From: Myxococcales bacterium
GTDB taxonomy: Bacteria > Myxococcota > Myxococcia > Myxococcales > JAJYLH01
DNA length: 64,000 nt
Reading direction: 5' to 3'
Assembly (NCBI GenBank): GCA_021787845.1
Contig: JAJYLH010000027.1
Location: 1 to 64,000 of the forward strand
Made by a program: the position numbers and the translations under genes. Shown piece after piece: positions 41,236-50,114 of the stretch (position 1 is the stretch's first letter; every line of letters starts with the position of its first letter). The notes under the pieces were generated by a model. It was not told where the DNA came from. It saw only the letters and a list, made by a program, of their open reading frames with translations, and made no database searches.

Positions 41236-41649
41236 ATGGCGGACGGGAAAATCAGCTTGGAGCTCGTGACGCCGGAGCGGCGGGTGCTGACGCAGGCGGT
41301 GGACGAGGTGCGGGCGCCGGGGTGGGAAGGCTCGTTCGGCGTGCGGCCGGGGCACATGGCGTTTCTGGCGCGGATGAAGCCGGGAGAGCTGGTGACGGTC
41401 GCGGGCGGCGCGCCGAGCCGGTTCGCGGTGGGGGAAGGGTTCGTCCAGGTTTCCAACGACCGGGTCTTGGTCCTCGCGGAGAGCGCCGAGCGGGCGGAGG
41501 ACATCGACCTCACGGCGGCGAAGGGCGAGGTCGAGGAAGAGACGAAAAAGCTCAAGACGATGAAAGAAGGCGACGGCGCCTACGAGATGCAGCGCGCCAA
41601 GGTGGAGCGAGCCGCCGCCAAGGTGATGGTCGCCAGCCGCAAGGCGTAA
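41236..41649 (+). CDS. atpC: ATP synthase F1 epsilon subunit
   Basis: 137 residues. N-terminal beta-sandwich (ISLELVTPERRVLTQAVDEVRAPGWEGSFGVRPGHMAFLA) and a C-terminal helical hairpin. It regulates ATPase activity. ATG 41236. Last atp gene; the accessory island begins after it. Confidence 0.94.
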   Translation: MADGKISLELVTPERRVLTQAVDEVRAPGWEGSFGVRPGHMAFLARMKPGELVTVAGGAPSRFAVGEGFVQVSNDRVLVLAESAERAEDIDLTAAKGEVEEETKKLKTMKEGDGAYEMQRAKVERAAAKVMVASRKA

Positions 41650-41813
41650 GCGCGCGATCGCCCGAGAACCTCGCGGCGGCGCCGAAGGGCATCGAGGCAG
41701 GCTTCTTGTCGTTGCTGACGCGACCAGGCGGAACGAGCGCGATCCCCCGGCCGTTGATACCCTCCCTGGCGTAGAAGCGCGCGCGCTTGGTAGGGTGTCT
41801 GGCCGGAGCAGAG

Positions 41814-42968
41814 ATGGATCGCGGCGTGTTCCTGAGAGCCTGGCGAACGGACGCGGGCCTTTCGATGGAAAGGGTCGCGCAACTCGCACGCCTCTCGACT
41901 GCGCACCTGGTAGGCATCGAAGAAGGGCGGCACGACGCTGGCTTTGAGGAGCTGGAGCGCCTCGCCTCGGTGTTGGGCTTGCGTCCGGAAGAAACCTTCG
42001 AGGAGGACATCACCGATTCCGCTCTCCTTGACGGCATTCGCATCCTGATGAAGAGCGCGGTCGCTTACCAACCGACCGAAGGGGTTCGCCTGCGTATCTT
42101 GGAAGCGGCCGCCGCCGCGAGAGACCTGCTCGACCTCCTCGCCGACACCGCTCCCGACAAGCCGGGCTTCCAACGGTTTTCGTTTCAGCCGGTTTCGCAC
42201 GATCTCCCGTGGAAGGACGGCGATCGGCTCGCGGCCAAGGTGCGTCGGACCCTCGGCCTCGATGGGCCGGTCGCCTCGATGCGCGATCTCGTCCGGGAGA
42301 CCCTCGGCATCCCGCTGGTCGGTGCGGACCTGACGGAGCTCGGGCCGGACGGCTTTTCGTACTACGCGCCGGGCCGTCGGGCGGTCATCGTCCTGAACCT
42401 GGCGGGAAAGAATAGCGATCCGTTGGTGCGTCGTTTCTCGCTCGCGCATGAGCTGGGTCACGTGCTGTTCGACCGGCCGGTCGCTGGCGGTTACGGGGTG
42501 GCCTGCAAGGTCGATCCGACCCGCGGGCTCGACGTGGAGTCGCGCGCGAACGCCTTCGCGATGCGGTTGCTGTTGCCCTATGCCCCCGTGCGCAAGCTGG
42601 GCGAGGCCGTGCTGGAGCCTTCGAAGTTCCGCGCGCTGATGGAGCGCTGGGGAGTCCACTACAGCGCGTTGCACCTCTATGTGGAGAAGCTGCTCAAGCT
42701 CAGCCGCGAGGACGCGGAAGCCCGTCTGCCTAACGTCGACCGCTCGGGGCCGAACCGGTGGGCGGGAGCGGAAGAGCTCCCCGAGGAACGGCGTGGTCTG
42801 CAGAGCGTTCCGTTACCGCGGCGAGGGGAGCTGGCGCGGCGGGTGCTCGAGGCCGTGCGCTCGGACCGCCTCTCTCGCGCGCGAGCCCGGGAGTTGTTGG
42901 GCGTCGGCGCTGACGTTTCCGTCGAAACGCTGGCGGCGGAGGCCGACGTGCCGTTGCACGGGGAGTGA
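41814..42968 (+). CDS. XRE regulator with ImmA/IrrE-type Zn protease
   Basis: 384 residues. An HTH of the XRE type (about 5-60: GLSMERVAQLARLSTAHLVGIEEG) is fused to a metallopeptidase with AHELGHVLF (HExxH at 212-216) and a downstream Glu in SRANAFAMRLLLP. Such proteins cleave partner repressors (ImmA on phage-type ICE elements, IrrE in Deinococcus). ATG 41814 has GGAG upstream. The gene 3 bp downstream encodes a PIN-like protein, so the two may form a toxin-antitoxin or stress-response pair. Confidence 0.82.
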   Translation: MDRGVFLRAWRTDAGLSMERVAQLARLSTAHLVGIEEGRHDAGFEELERLASVLGLRPEETFEEDITDSALLDGIRILMKSAVAYQPTEGVRLRILEAAAAARDLLDLLADTAPDKPGFQRFSFQPVSHDLPWKDGDRLAAKVRRTLGLDGPVASMRDLVRETLGIPLVGADLTELGPDGFSYYAPGRRAVIVLNLAGKNSDPLVRRFSLAHELGHVLFDRPVAGGYGVACKVDPTRGLDVESRANAFAMRLLLPYAPVRKLGEAVLEPSKFRALMERWGVHYSALHLYVEKLLKLSREDAEARLPNVDRSGPNRWAGAEELPEERRGLQSVPLPRRGELARRVLEAVRSDRLSRARARELLGVGADVSVETLAAEADVPLHGE

Positions 42969-42971
42969 GCC

Positions 42972-43625
42972 GTGCTCGACGAGCCGGCCTATCTGCTCGA
43001 CGCGGACACGGTCATCGACCTGCACTCCCTGGGCTTGATCGACGCGCTGAGCGCGGGTCTCACGACGAAAGCGGTCGTGGCGTGCTGCACGCGGTACGTC
43101 TGGGAACACGAGCTTTCGGCCCTGGAGCCGGTCCGCCGGAAGCTGGAACGGGCGGGTCTTGCCGTTCATGAGGTCGCGCCGAAGAGCCCGGCGGGCGTGA
43201 CCTTCCGCGACCTGCTCAAAGAGCGCGGGAATCCCGGTCGCAGCAGCCGCGGCGAGCTGAACCTCATCGCCTTCGCGACCCACCACGACCAGCCGCTGGC
43301 GCTCGTCGCACGCGACGAAGGCGCTCGGCGAGCCGCATCGAGGCACGGGCTCCCGGCGATCGATCTCGGCGATTTCATCTGCGACCTGGTCCTCCTGGGA
43401 TGCCTGGTGCCAGGCAGCGCACGTGAGGCCGTGGCCTGCTGGGACCTGCCGGACGCGGGAAACGGGCGGCCCAGAGGCTTCGCGGGTTCGACGCGATGCT
43501 GGCCGCGAGGAAGTCCGCGCGGGCCTCGTCGCAACGCCAGCGCGGCGGACCGTGACGGCCTTCGACGCCCCGCGCGAACATCGTCGGGACGGGCCGCCCG
43601 AACGGAGTGGCTTCACGAGCCATAA
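42972..43625 (+). CDS. PIN-like domain protein
   Basis: 217 residues from GTG 42972 with GGGGAG upstream. The N-terminal part (YLLDADTVIDLHSLG), a central Glu (SRGELNLIAFA) and LALVARDEGAR give the acidic pattern of a PIN-type RNase, residues about 8-140. After about residue 160 the sequence turns Arg/Gly/Ser-rich and looks like read-through of non-coding DNA, so the original stop may have been lost. It is coupled to the XRE-protease gene. Confidence 0.65.
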   Translation: MLDEPAYLLDADTVIDLHSLGLIDALSAGLTTKAVVACCTRYVWEHELSALEPVRRKLERAGLAVHEVAPKSPAGVTFRDLLKERGNPGRSSRGELNLIAFATHHDQPLALVARDEGARRAASRHGLPAIDLGDFICDLVLLGCLVPGSAREAVACWDLPDAGNGRPRGFAGSTRCWPRGSPRGPRRNASAADRDGLRRPARTSSGRAARTEWLHEP

Positions 43626-43679: not shown

Positions 43680-44840
43680 TCATCCCGACGCTGCGCCGTA
43701 TTCTGCCTCCACCCGCTCGATGCCCATGGCGCGAATCCGCTCGCCGAGCGGAAAGGCATCGGTGCCGGGGTAGACCAGGTCGAGTCGGTCGAGCTTCAGG
43801 TCTCGCATCGCGATGTGCATCGACGCGGTGACGGTCGGCTTGTCGGTGAGCTTGACCTCGAAGCCGTACTTTCGGCCTGCGCGCACGAGGAGCAGGTCGA
43901 GCTCGGCGGTGCCGTGCGTACCCCAGAAGAACGCCTCGCCCGGCCGGGCGTCGAGGGCGGCAAGTATCTGTCCGATGGCGAAGCCCTCCCACGAGGCGCC
44001 GACCTTCGGGTGAAAGAGGAGGTCGTGCCGCGTCCGGATTCCGAGCAGCGCGTGCAGCAGACCGCTGTCCGCGACGTAGACCTTCGGTGCTTTGACCTGT
44101 CGCTTGCCGATGTTTTCGTGCCACGGCGGGAGCACGCGCAACATGAAGGCCGCCGCGAGCACGTCCACGTGGTGCCGCACGGCGACGTCGCTCAGGCCCA
44201 TCGAGCGGCCGAGCTCGGAGCTGTTCAGCGTCTGGCCGCTCCAGTGGGCGAGCATGCTCCACAGGCGGAACAGCGCCGGTGCCGGAATGCGTAAGCCGAG
44301 CTGAGGTACGTCGCGCTCCAGGAACGTGCGCAGGAACTCCGTGCGCCAAGAGAAGCTCGCGTTGTCTCCACGGGCGAGGAACGAACGCGGGAACCCGCCG
44401 CGTAGCCACAGCCGGTCGCGCCGGGCGGGTCCGACCTCGGCCAGCGAGAGACCGTTCAGCTCGCGGTAGGCGATGCGCCCGGCGAGCGATTCCGACGATT
44501 GTCGCAGAAGGTCAGGAGAAGCGCTGCCGAGGATCAGAAACTTCGGCGACCGCGGCCGGTCGGCCAGCACGCGTAGGACCGGGAAGAGGTCGGGGCGCCG
44601 CTGAATCTCGTCGATGACCACGAGCCCCTTGAGCGGTGCGAGCGCGAGCATCGGCTCGCTCAACCGCACGAGGTGCAGTGGATCCTCGAGGTCGAAGAAC
44701 GTGACCGCCCCGCGTCGGCGCGCCGCGAGCTGCCGCGCGAGCGTGGTCTTCCCGACCTGGCGCGCCCCCAGGAGGGCCACGACGCGGTTCTGCCTGAGGA
44801 GCGACTCGATCCGCGAGAGCTGCTCGATGCGCTCGATCAT
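43680..44840 (-). CDS. DUF4143-type AAA+ ATPase
   Basis: 386 residues. Walker A GARQVGKTTLARQLA (about 26-40), Walker B LVVIDEIQRRPDL, sensor region ILGSASPDLLRQSSESLAGR, winged-helix part (SDVAVRHHVDVLAAAFMLRVLPPW), and a C-terminal nuclease-like fold (WEGFAIGQIL..ELDLLLVRAGRKYGFEVKLT). The family is widespread and of unclear cellular role. The ATG at 44840 is used; 44858 is a possible longer start. Divergent from the tandem AAA+ gene, sharing a 160-bp gap. Confidence 0.85.
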   Translation of the reverse strand: MIERIEQLSRIESLLRQNRVVALLGARQVGKTTLARQLAARRRGAVTFFDLEDPLHLVRLSEPMLALAPLKGLVVIDEIQRRPDLFPVLRVLADRPRSPKFLILGSASPDLLRQSSESLAGRIAYRELNGLSLAEVGPARRDRLWLRGGFPRSFLARGDNASFSWRTEFLRTFLERDVPQLGLRIPAPALFRLWSMLAHWSGQTLNSSELGRSMGLSDVAVRHHVDVLAAAFMLRVLPPWHENIGKRQVKAPKVYVADSGLLHALLGIRTRHDLLFHPKVGASWEGFAIGQILAALDARPGEAFFWGTHGTAELDLLLVRAGRKYGFEVKLTDKPTVTASMHIAMRDLKLDRLDLVYPGTDAFPLGERIRAMGIERVEAEYGAASG

Positions 44841-45000
44841 GAGAGGGGAAGATAGCATGAAAATTCGAAGCCTGACTTCGACTCTTCACGTTCACGTCCC
44901 GCACATCGTCGCCCGGCTCGACAACTGCCTACGTGAAGCCATTTCCGGCCATGTCCGAGGGGGTCGCTACACTCGCGAGCTGGGACTTTTCGGAGGAGCC

Positions 45001-47106
45001 ATGACGCGGTCAGGTTCGGCAAAGCTCGGCGAGACGGCGCGCGACCCGCTCGAGGCGCTCGTGAGGGTGTACGTCCACAACCTCCTGGTCGGCACCGACT
45101 TGCGGCGGATGAGCGTGAGCGCGCTACGGCGCGTGGTGGCCGTCGATGTGGTCGTCGACCTGCTCGCGAAGTGCGATGTTGAATCGGGTGATTGGAACAT
45201 CAGGGCGCTGGCGCGGAGCTTGCGCGCCTACTTCCGCGATGCTGGACGGAAGCCCCGCCGGCCAGCGATGGGACGTGGCATGCTCGCCGCGAACGTCAGC
45301 GTCGTCGGCGACCTGCTCGACCTCGACCCAGTGGAGCGTGAGGTCCTGTTCTTCACGCTCGTGACGGTCGTGCGTTCGGACCTGAAGGATTTGCTCGACT
45401 CGTTCGGCGACCTATCGATCGGGCAGGCTACGGACCTCACCGCCGTCGCCATCGACCGGCCGCGGGCCGCGGTTCGCAGTGCGCTCGAGCCGCAGGGGCG
45501 CCTGTTGCGCAGCGGCCTCGTGCGGTTCGACGAGAGGAACCTGTATGCCTTCTCCGCCAAGATCGAGCTGAAGCACGGGCTCCCGGACCTCGCGCTCCAG
45601 CCTGGGCTCGACCGCGATCGTCTGGTGACGGCGTACTTGCCCGAATCGCGCCCGGCGACGCTGGTCGCCGACGACTATCTCCATCTCGGCGAGTCCGTCG
45701 GCCTGACGCGCGACCTCCTGCGCGCGGCCCTGCGCGACCGGCGTCCGGGCGTCAACGTGCTCTTCTACGGCGAGACCGGCACCGGCAAGACCGAGCTCGC
45801 GCGCCTTCTCGCCGCGGAGCTGGGCATCAAGCTCTATGTCGCCGGTAAAGCGGACCGCGACGGGGAGTCCGCGTCGGCCCAGGAGCGCCTGTCGTCGCTC
45901 TTGCTCGGGCACCGGCTCTTGCCGGGAGCGCAAGCGCTACTACTCTTCGACGAGGTGGAAGACCTGTTCCTGTGGGGCTCATCGCCGTTCGAGCCCGAGC
46001 AGGCGACGGCGCGGATGTCCAAGCAGTGGTTCAACGACCTGTTGGAGACCAATCCCGCGCCGACGATCTGGATTTCCAACCGGGTCTCCGGCATCGATGG
46101 AGCGTTCCTGCGGCGCTTCAGCTACGCGATCGAATTCCGGCATCTCGGCGTCGCGCAACGGCGGCGGGTGCTCGCGAAGCACCTGCGCGATGGGGAGCTG
46201 AGCGGCAGCGAAATCGACCTCCTCGCGCAGAAGTTCGACGTGTCGCCGGCGCAGTTCGGCGCCGGGGTCTCGGCCGCGCGGATGCTCTCGGCCGAGGGTC
46301 GCGCGACCCGCGAGAGCCTCGAACGGGTCCTCGCCCCGATGCACAAGCTCGTCACCGGACTCGATGCGAACGTACGCCCCATCTTCGACGCGAGCGGGTA
46401 CCGCCTCGACGTTCTCAACACGGCCGACGACCTTCAGGCCATCGTCGATCGGCTGAGCGATTGGTGCCCGAGCTCCAAGGCAGGGGTGTCGCTCTGCTTC
46501 TACGGCCTGCCCGGCACCGGGAAATCCGAGTTCGCGAAATACCTCGCCTGGCGGATGGGCCGCCACGTCGTCGCCCGGCGCGGGTCTGATCTCTTGGGGC
46601 CATTCGTTGGCCAGACCGAGGAGCTCATCGCAGAGGCGTTCCGCGAGGCCGAGGCCGACGATGCGCTGCTCCTCTTCGATGAAGTCGACACTTTCCTGCG
46701 CGACCGGTCTCGTGCACGGGTCTCTTGGGAGGTGACGCAGGTCAACGAATTTCTCCAGCAGCTCGAGTCGTTCCGCGGCGTCGTGGTCTGCACGACCAAC
46801 CTGCGCGAGGACCTCGACGAGGCGTCGCTGCGCCGGTTCGTGTTCAAAGTGGAGTTCCGGCCGCTGCTCGCCGAGCAGGCGATGACGCTGTTTCGCGACA
46901 CCGTCCGGGGTCCCCTGGCCGAAAAGGAGGCAACGCGCGTTCTTCACGAGTTGGCCAAACTCACGAACCTGACGCCCGGCGACTTCGCGGCGGTGAGCCG
47001 GCGCGCCGCATCGCTGGAGACCACGTTCGAGCCTGGCGACCTGCTTCGCCAGTTGCAACATGAGTGCGAGCTCAAACGCGGCCCCACTCGGCGGATGGGG
47101 TTCTGA
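45001..47106 (+). CDS. tandem AAA+ ATPase
   Basis: 701 residues. An N-terminal region without known motif (1-230) is followed by two AAA+ modules: GETGTGKT (257-264) with LLLFDEVEDLF (313-323), and GLPGTGKS (502-509) with LLLFDEVDTFL (556-566). Second-module residues RRFVFKVEFRPL contain the arginine-finger-like region. It resembles cytoplasmic COG0464-type ATPases, which remodel proteins, but its substrate is unknown. ATG 45001 has GGAGGAG 3 bases upstream; an earlier ATG at 44857 lacks one. Confidence 0.82.
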   Translation: MTRSGSAKLGETARDPLEALVRVYVHNLLVGTDLRRMSVSALRRVVAVDVVVDLLAKCDVESGDWNIRALARSLRAYFRDAGRKPRRPAMGRGMLAANVSVVGDLLDLDPVEREVLFFTLVTVVRSDLKDLLDSFGDLSIGQATDLTAVAIDRPRAAVRSALEPQGRLLRSGLVRFDERNLYAFSAKIELKHGLPDLALQPGLDRDRLVTAYLPESRPATLVADDYLHLGESVGLTRDLLRAALRDRRPGVNVLFYGETGTGKTELARLLAAELGIKLYVAGKADRDGESASAQERLSSLLLGHRLLPGAQALLLFDEVEDLFLWGSSPFEPEQATARMSKQWFNDLLETNPAPTIWISNRVSGIDGAFLRRFSYAIEFRHLGVAQRRRVLAKHLRDGELSGSEIDLLAQKFDVSPAQFGAGVSAARMLSAEGRATRESLERVLAPMHKLVTGLDANVRPIFDASGYRLDVLNTADDLQAIVDRLSDWCPSSKAGVSLCFYGLPGTGKSEFAKYLAWRMGRHVVARRGSDLLGPFVGQTEELIAEAFREAEADDALLLFDEVDTFLRDRSRARVSWEVTQVNEFLQQLESFRGVVVCTTNLREDLDEASLRRFVFKVEFRPLLAEQAMTLFRDTVRGPLAEKEATRVLHELAKLTNLTPGDFAAVSRRAASLETTFEPGDLLRQLQHECELKRGPTRRMGF

Positions 47107-47432
47107 AGTACTAACCCGAAAAGTCTTCCCGGCGCCCGAAGATTCTCGCCGCGGCGCGCCAACGAGTAGGATGGGTGGAGCGCAGCGCAGCCCATCAGCG
47201 CGACGCCCGCCGATGGGCTCCGTTTCACTTCACCGATCCAACGACTACGACTTCTGAGGTGCTGGACCGAGTTTCCACGGTCGCGAGTGGGCGGTCGGCA
47301 TCCCGCCAGGCGAGGTCGTGTCGCTCCCGCCGGGGTCGCGGTCGGCGACGACGGGCGACATGGAACGATGGGGCGGGCAGCGCGCCGGCGCCGAGATGAA
47401 TCCCGACACGCGTTGTGTTAGAAGCCTCCGCG
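47107..47432. other. gene-free stretch with GTAGGATGGGTGG repeat
   Basis: 326 bp with no gene. The repeat at 47163-47252 (AGTAGGATGGGTGGAGCG...CACTTCACCGATCCAACGACT) can fold into a hairpin. The first 50 bp (ACCCGAAAAGTCTTC..GAAGATTCTCGCCG) resemble a stretch near 59130-59175. Confidence 0.7.
47163..47252. repeat. GTAGGATGGGTGG inverted repeat
   Basis: Related to the copy at 144-241, with arms slightly diverged and inner CCCATCAGCGCGACGC / GCCGATGGGC stem. Confidence 0.7.
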
Positions 47433-50114
47433 ATGTCTTCGGGTCGGCCGCCGCTGGCGCTGTCGTGGTCGCGCGCTGGGAAGATCGAGCTCGATCCGGC
47501 GCCGCCGGAGGAGTCGGTGCTCTCGCCGGCGCTCGACCAGGCGGTGCGCGGTTGGCTCGAGACCGGGCCCGCGCTCGCGGCGCTGGAGCTCGCGGCACGG
47601 CATCCCGATGAGGCCCTCCCGCCCTCGTGGGCGTTCGCCCGGGAAGCGGCGCGGCACGTCATCGCCGAAGCCGCTCGACAAGGGGACCCCCAAGGGGTCG
47701 GCGCCGCGCCAGACGCTTTCTCGAACCTCGCGGACACGCTGCCGCCGATGCGCGGAAACGAGTACGCGACGAAGGAGGCGCTCGCCGCGCTGTGGCAGGC
47801 GCTCGCGCTCGCGCTCGCCGACGCCGCGGGTTCGCAGGTCGAGCCGTGGCTCGCTGCTCGGCACGCGCAATGGCACGTCGCCGGTCGCGTCTGTTTCCAT
47901 CTCGCGGAGAACAAGCGCGACCCGGCGTTCCCTTTCGCGTTTCTCGCGACCTACGTCGACAGCGGCATCGCGACGGACAAGGCCAAGCACAAGCCCCTCG
48001 GGTCCGCTCTCGCTGAGTATGCGGGCGCGAACGCCAAGGTGGCGCTGCTCGCGCTGTTGGGGCCGGTCCACCGGGCGGCGCAGGCGAGCGGGTTCATTCG
48101 AAGCTTGCTCGACTCGCATGCGATCTTTCAGCCGCAGCGATGGACCGCGACACAGGCGCATTCCTTCTTGCGCGACGCTCCCGCGTGCGAGGCGGCGGGA
48201 GTCGTGGTTCGGGTTCCCGACTGGTGGCAGAAGCGGGCGCCGGCGCGGGTGACCGTGCAAGTGACTCTGGGCAAGGGGGCCCCCAGCGGGGTCGGCGCGG
48301 ACGCGCTCGTGGGTTTCGATGCGGCGCTGGCGCTGGACGGCGAGCCGCTCACCGAGGACGAGTGGCGCGCGCTGACCGAGGAGACGGCGAGCCTCGTGTC
48401 GCTGCGCGGCCGCTGGGTGGAGATCGACCGCGCGCGTTTGTCGGAAGCCCTGGCGCACTGGAAGAGAGCGCAACGGGCGGCGAAGGAGGGCATCCCCTTT
48501 CACGAGGCGATGCGGATGCTCGCGGGTTTCGATGGCACGCCCACCTCGCCGGCGGCGGATGATGCGGAGCGCAGTTGGACGCGGGTCGCGCCGGGCGAGT
48601 GGCTGTCGAAGACGCTGGAGACCTTGCGATCTCCCGATGCCGCCTCGTCCGCGCTTCCGAAGTCGCTGGCGGGCACGTTGCGTCCCTACCAGGAAGCGGG
48701 CGTGCGATGGCTCGAATTCGTCAACGGCTTGGGCTTGGGCGCTTGCCTCGCTGACGACATGGGTCTGGGCAAGACCATCCAGGTGCTGAGCCTGTTCCTT
48801 TGGCTCAAGGAGAAGCGGCTGGCGCGGGCGCCGCATCTGTTGGTGGTACCGGCATCGCTCATCGGCAACTGGCAATCCGAGGCGGCCCGCTTCGCGCCTT
48901 CGTTGAGATTCGTCGTCGCGCACCCGTCTGCCATGCCCGCGGGCGAGTTGGAATCACGCGGTGCGAAGCTGCGCGAGGGCGCCGACGTGGTGCTGACGAC
49001 CTATGCGATGCTCCTGCGTTCCACGTGGATGTCGGAGCATCCGTGGGACACGATGGTGCTCGACGAGGCGCAGGCGATCAAGAATCCCGGCGCGCGCCAG
49101 ACGCGGGCGGCGAAGGCGGTCGAGGCGCGGATGCGGCTCGCGCTGACCGGGACGCCGGTCGAGAATCGCGCGGGCGATCTGTGGAGCCTCTTCGACTTTC
49201 TGCAGCCGGGTCTCCTCGGAACCACGACCGAGTTCAAACGTCTGTCCAAGGCCGCGACCGAGAAGTCCGAAGGCTGGGCGCCGGTGCGCACGCTCGTGTC
49301 GCCGTACATCCTCAGACGGCTGAAGACCGATCGCAAAGTCATCAGCGATCTGCCCGACAAGACGGAGATGCTGGCGGAGTGCGGTCTCACGCGCGAGCAG
49401 GTCGGGCTCTACCAGCGCGCGATCGAGGAGCTCAAGGAGCGGCTGAGCGACAAGGAAGACGACCCGATGCGGCGGCGCGGCGCGGTGCTGGCGGCGCTCG
49501 TCCGGCTCAAGCAGATTTGCAACCATCCCGCGCAGTGGCTCGCCGACAATCGCTGGGAGCCGGAGCGCAGCGCGAAGTTCGCTCGGGTCGCGGAGATTCT
49601 GGAGCCCATCCGCGAACGGCAGGAGAAGGTGCTCGTCTTCACACAGTTTCGCGAGATGGTAGAGCCCCTGGCGGGCTATCTCGCCAAGGAAATGGGACAC
49701 GAGGGGCTCATCCTCCACGGCGGCACGACGGTCGCGAAGCGGCGCGCGTTGGTGGAGAGGTTCCAGTCTGATGACGCGGTGTGGTTCATGGTGCTGTCGA
49801 TTCGAGCGGGCGGCACTGGTCTCAACCTGACCGCGGCGTCGCACGTCATCCACTTCGACCGGTGGTGGAACCCAGCGGTGGAGGATCAGGCGACCGATCG
49901 CGCGTTTCGCATCGGGCAGAAGAAAAACGTCTTCGTCCACAAGCTCTGCGCAAGAGGCACGGTCGACGAGCGCGTGGACGAGATGATTCACAAGAAGCGG
50001 GGGCTGGCGAAGGAGCTGCTGGGCACTGGCGGCGAAGTTCCTTTGACCGAGCTGTCGAACGAGGAGCTCCTGGCGCTCGTGCAGCTCGATGCCCGGCGAG
50101 CGACGGTGGAGTGA
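47433..50114 (+). CDS. SNF2-family helicase
   Basis: 893 residues. An N-terminal region (1-400) with the SNF2-associated DUF3670-type pattern (ALDGEPLTEDEWRALTEE..LVSLRGRWVEID) precedes the helicase core: Walker A DDMGLGKT (441-448), DEAQ box (544-547), LTGTPVENRAGDLWSLFDFL, and C-terminal motifs LSIRAGGTGLNL and DRAFRIGQ. It is an ATP-driven DNA translocase, usually paired with a SWIM protein as here. ATG 47433 is used; GTG 47415 is the alternative. A near-parS sequence inside it (49018-49031) is probably chance. Confidence 0.92.
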   Translation: MSSGRPPLALSWSRAGKIELDPAPPEESVLSPALDQAVRGWLETGPALAALELAARHPDEALPPSWAFAREAARHVIAEAARQGDPQGVGAAPDAFSNLADTLPPMRGNEYATKEALAALWQALALALADAAGSQVEPWLAARHAQWHVAGRVCFHLAENKRDPAFPFAFLATYVDSGIATDKAKHKPLGSALAEYAGANAKVALLALLGPVHRAAQASGFIRSLLDSHAIFQPQRWTATQAHSFLRDAPACEAAGVVVRVPDWWQKRAPARVTVQVTLGKGAPSGVGADALVGFDAALALDGEPLTEDEWRALTEETASLVSLRGRWVEIDRARLSEALAHWKRAQRAAKEGIPFHEAMRMLAGFDGTPTSPAADDAERSWTRVAPGEWLSKTLETLRSPDAASSALPKSLAGTLRPYQEAGVRWLEFVNGLGLGACLADDMGLGKTIQVLSLFLWLKEKRLARAPHLLVVPASLIGNWQSEAARFAPSLRFVVAHPSAMPAGELESRGAKLREGADVVLTTYAMLLRSTWMSEHPWDTMVLDEAQAIKNPGARQTRAAKAVEARMRLALTGTPVENRAGDLWSLFDFLQPGLLGTTTEFKRLSKAATEKSEGWAPVRTLVSPYILRRLKTDRKVISDLPDKTEMLAECGLTREQVGLYQRAIEELKERLSDKEDDPMRRRGAVLAALVRLKQICNHPAQWLADNRWEPERSAKFARVAEILEPIRERQEKVLVFTQFREMVEPLAGYLAKEMGHEGLILHGGTTVAKRRALVERFQSDDAVWFMVLSIRAGGTGLNLTAASHVIHFDRWWNPAVEDQATDRAFRIGQKKNVFVHKLCARGTVDERVDEMIHKKRGLAKELLGTGGEVPLTELSNEELLALVQLDARRATVE

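Follow-up and report, generated by a model that had tools for sequence, protein, structure and literature searches.

Fused COG2856-XRE genes were recognised in 2009 in operons with PIN or RelE genes, and a toxin-antitoxin role was proposed for them by Makarova, Wolf and Koonin (PMC2701414). As presented in that paper, the fused protease would cleave a separate XRE repressor. A survey of 2019 describes XRE-COG2856 as a class still awaiting an experimental test (PMC6929052). Pairs of ImmA antitoxins and PIN-like toxins were charted in 2023 by Ernits et al. as NetFlax node D25, and the same report presents ImmA-domain RmrA proteins as the antitoxins of RosmerTA phage defence (PMC10440598). Two further lines of published work touch on the subject: the IrrE/PprI protease is reported to be activated by single-stranded DNA (PMC10904395), and two PIN nucleases belonging to other, unrelated systems are reported to defend against phage (PMC13092281).

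How does the present locus compare? The window, by which the whole stretch of 64,000 nucleotides analysed here is meant, lies on contig C113 (69,161 bases), one of the 153 contigs of a 6.24 Mb draft genome. Downstream of atpC it carries a gene for an HTH-ImmA protein (P0001), and its stop codon is separated by 3 bp from the GTG of a second gene, whose product is PIN-like (P0002; Table 1). This pair fits the 2009 description of XRE-COG2856/PIN operons, and the arrangement is already described in the literature. The earlier note on this DNA had placed the two genes 3 bp apart behind atpC, with which the coordinates and the Pfam match of atpC agree. It also saw the border of an accessory island at this point, a reading that holds in part. 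Among 30 places returned by an atpC search in 28 of 30 genomes, an HTH-ImmA gene within roughly 1.5 kb occurs only at that of the window; the genomes searched included no other of the same family, hence an insertion cannot be dated. Between 41500 and 43900 there is neither a promoter match nor a coding-strand terminator. The 14-bp palindrome at 41775-41788, examined as a candidate operator, was discarded, as the window holds 19 such palindromes and the two close relatives (G076 and G090) lack this one.

Table 1. The gene pair and its flanks, in window positions
Feature	Position	Strand	Evidence and remarks
atpC (F1 ATP synthase epsilon)	41236-41649	+	Pfam ATP-synt_DE_N 5.5e-22; upstream flank, outside the module
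HTH (XRE)-ImmA/IrrE (M78) protein P0001, 384 aa	41814-42968	+	ATG start; putative repressor/antitoxin
PIN-like ORF P0002, 217 aa	42972-43625	+	GTG start; putative toxin
PIN-like nuclease core (predicted)	42972-43484	+	acids D10, E47, E95, D115; GC3 0.85
C-terminal tail of P0002, out of frame	43485-43625	+	codon-position GC switch, frame-specific similarity
DUF4143/AAA_14 ATPase	43680-44858	-	DUF4143 8.5e-39; PADLOC candidate PDC-S01 1.4e-78; convergent with the module
Twin-AAA ATPase, IetA-like C-terminal domain	44614-47106	+	PADLOC IetA 5.6e-29
SNF2 helicase	47415-50114	+	SNF2-rel_dom 5.8e-60; SCO1167/SCO6262 family 4.9e-169, below the family's cut-off

The identity of the first protein as an XRE-ImmA/IrrE protein, as originally called, is borne out by an N-terminal HTH (HTH_31, 2.8e-10) and a peptidase domain (Peptidase_M78, 1.2e-9), both above the Pfam cut-offs. 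Its translation contains HELGH, an HExxH motif, at residues 212-216. Among the PADLOC models the best match is RmrA (2.9e-16, residues 7-286), judged by E-value alone without a family cut-off, followed by capP (1.7e-12) and capH (2.7e-6). Searched by sequence against known structures, the protein finds CapP (7t5t, 9.4e-4) and HTH structures of DdrO. HExxH is retained in 12 of 13 paired HTH-ImmA proteins examined. The paired ImmA protein of locus L050 (2595-3746, minus strand) has HDLCH (HDxxH) in its place, a substitution that hints at altered or unneeded protease activity in some pairs.

For the second protein, Pfam, PADLOC and NCBIfam give no family match. Is it nonetheless a PIN nuclease? 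Four acidic residues, D10, E47, E95 and D115, are invariant in an alignment of seven homologues (A3), and their order is the one typical of PIN domains. Profile-profile comparison with hhalign points the same way. Ten PIN-like homologues aligned to 25 members of PF01850 with an E-value of 1e-4; in this set P0002 was trimmed to 175 residues, and one row was kept (G046) whose stop-to-stop N-terminal part is probably not homologous. With 14 PIN-like rows the score was 33.5 (E 4.1e-5, probability 70%), against 13.1 for the best of 100 column shuffles, and the first and last acidic motifs fell in register. Across the PIN-like sets the probability of a match to classical PIN is moderate (57-70%); the HTH-ImmA alignment, compared as a control with the same family, reached 0.1%. 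The PF01850 reference was drawn from related genomes (88 places found, 30 as loci, 25 used). In addition, 4 of 10 paired homologous partners match the PADLOC model PDC-S70 (6.8e-12 to 0.0011), and two of these four (L048 and L055) have weak Pfam PIN_6 matches (0.16 and 0.03). PDC-S70 is reported to encode a PIN nuclease domain (PMC12988326). Single-sequence structure prediction of P0002 gave no confident model (mean pLDDT only 37.8), and a search of the PDB by sequence with profile A3 returned chance matches only (best E 0.78). Based on the invariant acids, the profile-profile match and the homologous partners that match PDC-S70, the view of P0002 as a PIN-like protein, also that of the earlier note, is supported; it would belong to a subfamily for which Pfam, NCBIfam and PADLOC have no model.

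Are the two genes kept together? In G076 and G090 they lie side by side between flanking ORFs that differ from those of the window, the PIN-like proteins being 56% and 51% identical to P0002, respectively, and the HTH-ImmA proteins 63% identical to P0001 in both. Among 195 genomes of the phylum, P0002 alone as a query matches in six, and a four-row PIN profile finds 11 places in 10 genomes. An HTH-ImmA gene adjoins eight of these 11 places (window, G076, G090, G099, G111, G078, G011:C2 and G046); two others are at contig starts (G011:C61 and G053:C10), and the remaining one is a weak match in G064 that was left out of the inspection. Starting from P0001 (E up to 1e-10), 21 places were obtained, corresponding to 20 HTH-ImmA genes in 14 of the 195 genomes. 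By either protein the distribution is patchy. A PIN-like gene lies immediately downstream of 13 of the 20: in the window and the C104 copy of its own genome, in G076 and G005 (two each), and in G090, G099, G078, G111, G189, G009 and G157:C191. The window and six rows of profile A3 are among these 13 and match by construction, while the other six are independent. Four of the independent partners, absent from the profile, match it at 3.4e-6 to 1.2e-4; that of G009, cut by a contig end, reaches 3.1e-4 with the 14-row profile, and that of G157:C191 0.0039 with a classical-PIN profile. Behind the HTH-ImmA gene of G005:C408 (L040), the sequence resembles by eye the start or a remnant of a PIN gene, and the gene of G011:C75 is at a contig end. 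The downstream neighbour is of another or an unrecognised kind at five of the 20 genes (G157:C114, G157:C192, G088, G096 and G121), which means that the HTH-ImmA protein can do without a PIN partner. In 7 of the 13 pairs for which HExxH was examined, the second start overlaps the end of the first gene by four bases, with start codons chosen by script.

The window's own genome (G000) has seven ImmA-domain places, four of them with a PIN-like gene directly downstream; two of those four PIN-like genes are rows of the profile used. Beyond the window's own pair, the HTH-ImmA genes with a PIN-like gene directly behind them are at L049 (G000:C104), L132 (G000:C17) and L136 (G000:C23). No relatives of P0002 were found in the plasmid or phage collections searched, nor any relatives in two scans of genome contigs or in scans of viral contigs. 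The plasmid and phage collections each hold one weak relative of the HTH-ImmA protein, near which the PIN-like profile has no significant match. Separate occurrence of the partners was what the earlier note had named as speaking against a module when it proposed a search for the pair in other genomes; the partners turn out to be conserved together, and the pairing recurs with diverged PIN partners.

Which of the described systems is then closest? The locus shares with the XRE-COG2856 and PIN operons an XRE HTH and an ImmA domain with HExxH in one protein, a PIN gene (its nature resting on indirect matches) in the same predicted operon, and a pair conserved, if patchily, across genomes. It differs in two respects. 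The separate XRE repressor proposed in the 2009 account (PMC2701414) would require a third gene, and none is seen here; moreover, the PIN subfamily is the unmodelled one. With RosmerTA the locus has in common the class of HTH-ImmA antitoxin, as the RmrA models indicate, and node D25 is reported with PIN-like partners; by contrast, the tested Kita-phage toxin is described as depolarising membranes and as having no similarity to other families (PMC10440598). A comparison with RmrT itself comes down to the empty PADLOC result for P0002, and the RmrT proteins are reported as toxins that differ among themselves (PMC10440598).

VapBC modules would share the chemistry of a PIN toxin, but the partner here is a 384-aa HTH-ImmA protein instead of a small VapB-type DNA-binding antitoxin; membership was rejected, P0002 having no PF01850 match in Pfam. 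DUF4411 is a comparable case. In 97 genomes of the phylum, three of six DUF4411 places have an HTH-ImmA match in the locus (9.8e-6, 0.0064 and 0.0066), but the PIN-like set matches the DUF4411 set weakly (hhalign 9-15%). This assignment was likewise rejected, as P0002 has no match to PF14367 and there is none in the window's genome either. Finally, IrrE/PprI-DdrO and CapP-CapH also combine an ImmA/IrrE protease domain with an XRE-type HTH. In CapP-CapH, protease and repressor are separate proteins. They are also reported as separate for IrrE/PprI-DdrO (PMC10904395), whereas here the two are fused and a nuclease gene follows.

Another feature of the locus is the end of the PIN-like ORF, whose last 55 residues the earlier note had taken for read-through. 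GC content by codon position in the PIN frame is 0.75/0.50/0.85 over 42972-43484, similar to the HTH-ImmA gene (0.75/0.47/0.82), and becomes 0.74/0.83/0.65 over 43485-43622. G076 and G090 end in a short conserved C-terminus. Of the three frames after 43480, only one resembles these C-termini (local scores 37 and 42, reached by none of 500 shuffles in either case). In the annotated frame both scores are 20, values that 267 and 254 of 500 shuffles equal or exceed. Alignment of the C-termini, as had been proposed, thus recovers the homologous C-terminus of the window in another frame, with its stop at 43555. The GC switch and the frame-specific similarity place a reading-frame change near 43485, so that about 46 residues at the end are out of frame. 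The oddity is therefore real, with a frame change as its cause and about 46 residues, not 55, as its extent. It is seen in one draft assembly and may reflect either a genuine mutation or a mistake in the assembly, and the window's PIN copy may accordingly be weakened, dead or simply misread by sequencing.

Could the window hold a decaying copy, whose toxin has lost its native C-terminus? This is a real though minority possibility, and it is compatible with a toxin-antitoxin reading for the family as a whole. The frame change itself favours decay, as does the remnant-like appearance of the copy at L040. Against decay, the GC3 of the HTH-ImmA gene and of the PIN core (0.82 and 0.85) gives both the look of coding sequence that is being maintained, all four acids are intact and upstream of the frame change, and base errors are possible in an assembly of 153 contigs. 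Intact-frame PIN copies exist in G076 and G090, and these two pairs can be tested directly for toxin release by proteolysis of the fused ImmA protein.

Taken together, the locus is probably an XRE-ImmA/PIN module resembling type II toxin-antitoxin systems. Gene order, near-overlap, co-conservation and domain content are the observed basis for this. The toxin-antitoxin or anti-phage switch suggested at the outset agrees with the published predictions and with experiments on relatives within the ImmA antitoxin class. How might such a module work? By analogy with the families involved, the PIN protein would be an endoribonuclease toxin with VapC-like chemistry, its four acids binding metal, and the HTH-ImmA protein would repress the operon and neutralise the toxin. 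Phage infection, single-stranded DNA or a similar trigger could activate the ImmA protease domain, which might then cleave the HTH/antitoxin portion of its own chain or of a second copy. Cleavage would derepress the operon and free the RNase, leading to cell arrest. A bolder version is rather doubtful as a whole: the fused protein would be sensor, protease, operon repressor and antitoxin in one, a DNA-damage or phage signal would cause self-cleavage and release an RNase of the unmodelled PIN subfamily, and, across the phylum, a conserved HTH-ImmA chassis would be combined with exchangeable PIN partners.

Other explanations of the pair fare less well. It might be a regulator of stress responses that acts through a nuclease, and not an addiction module, in the manner of IrrE/PprI-DdrO or CapP-CapH, in which sensing of single-stranded DNA switches on the PIN nuclease without protein-protein neutralisation. 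The matches of P0001 to the capP and capH models, to the CapP structure and to DdrO, together with the reported activation of PprI by single-stranded DNA (PMC10904395), lean this way, but the explanation seems unlikely: HTH and protease are fused as in the RmrA antitoxins, RmrA outscores capP in PADLOC, and the closely overlapping genes with their varied partners resemble toxin-antitoxin pairs. That two unrelated genes merely ended up as neighbours behind atpC is most improbable. Solely the missing family model for the second gene speaks for it, and the recurrence of the pair next to different flanking ORFs and at 13 of 20 HTH-ImmA genes speaks against; chance adjacency was rejected on this co-conservation. 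To the class predicted in 2009, the locus and its relatives add a PIN subfamily that lacks a library model and, within a single bacterial phylum, at least 13 pairs of HTH-ImmA and PIN-like genes.

The surroundings offer some further observations. The N-terminal part of the twin-AAA ATPase (about 80 residues) overlaps the DUF4143 gene on the opposite strand, so its true start is probably further in. Further along the window the genes are ordinary ones, such as aspartate/ornithine carbamoyltransferase (51793), CheR (59192) and MCP (62429). Elsewhere, a relative with a genome of 3.8 Mb (G055) has 58 PF01850 PIN matches, far above each of the 20 other genomes searched.
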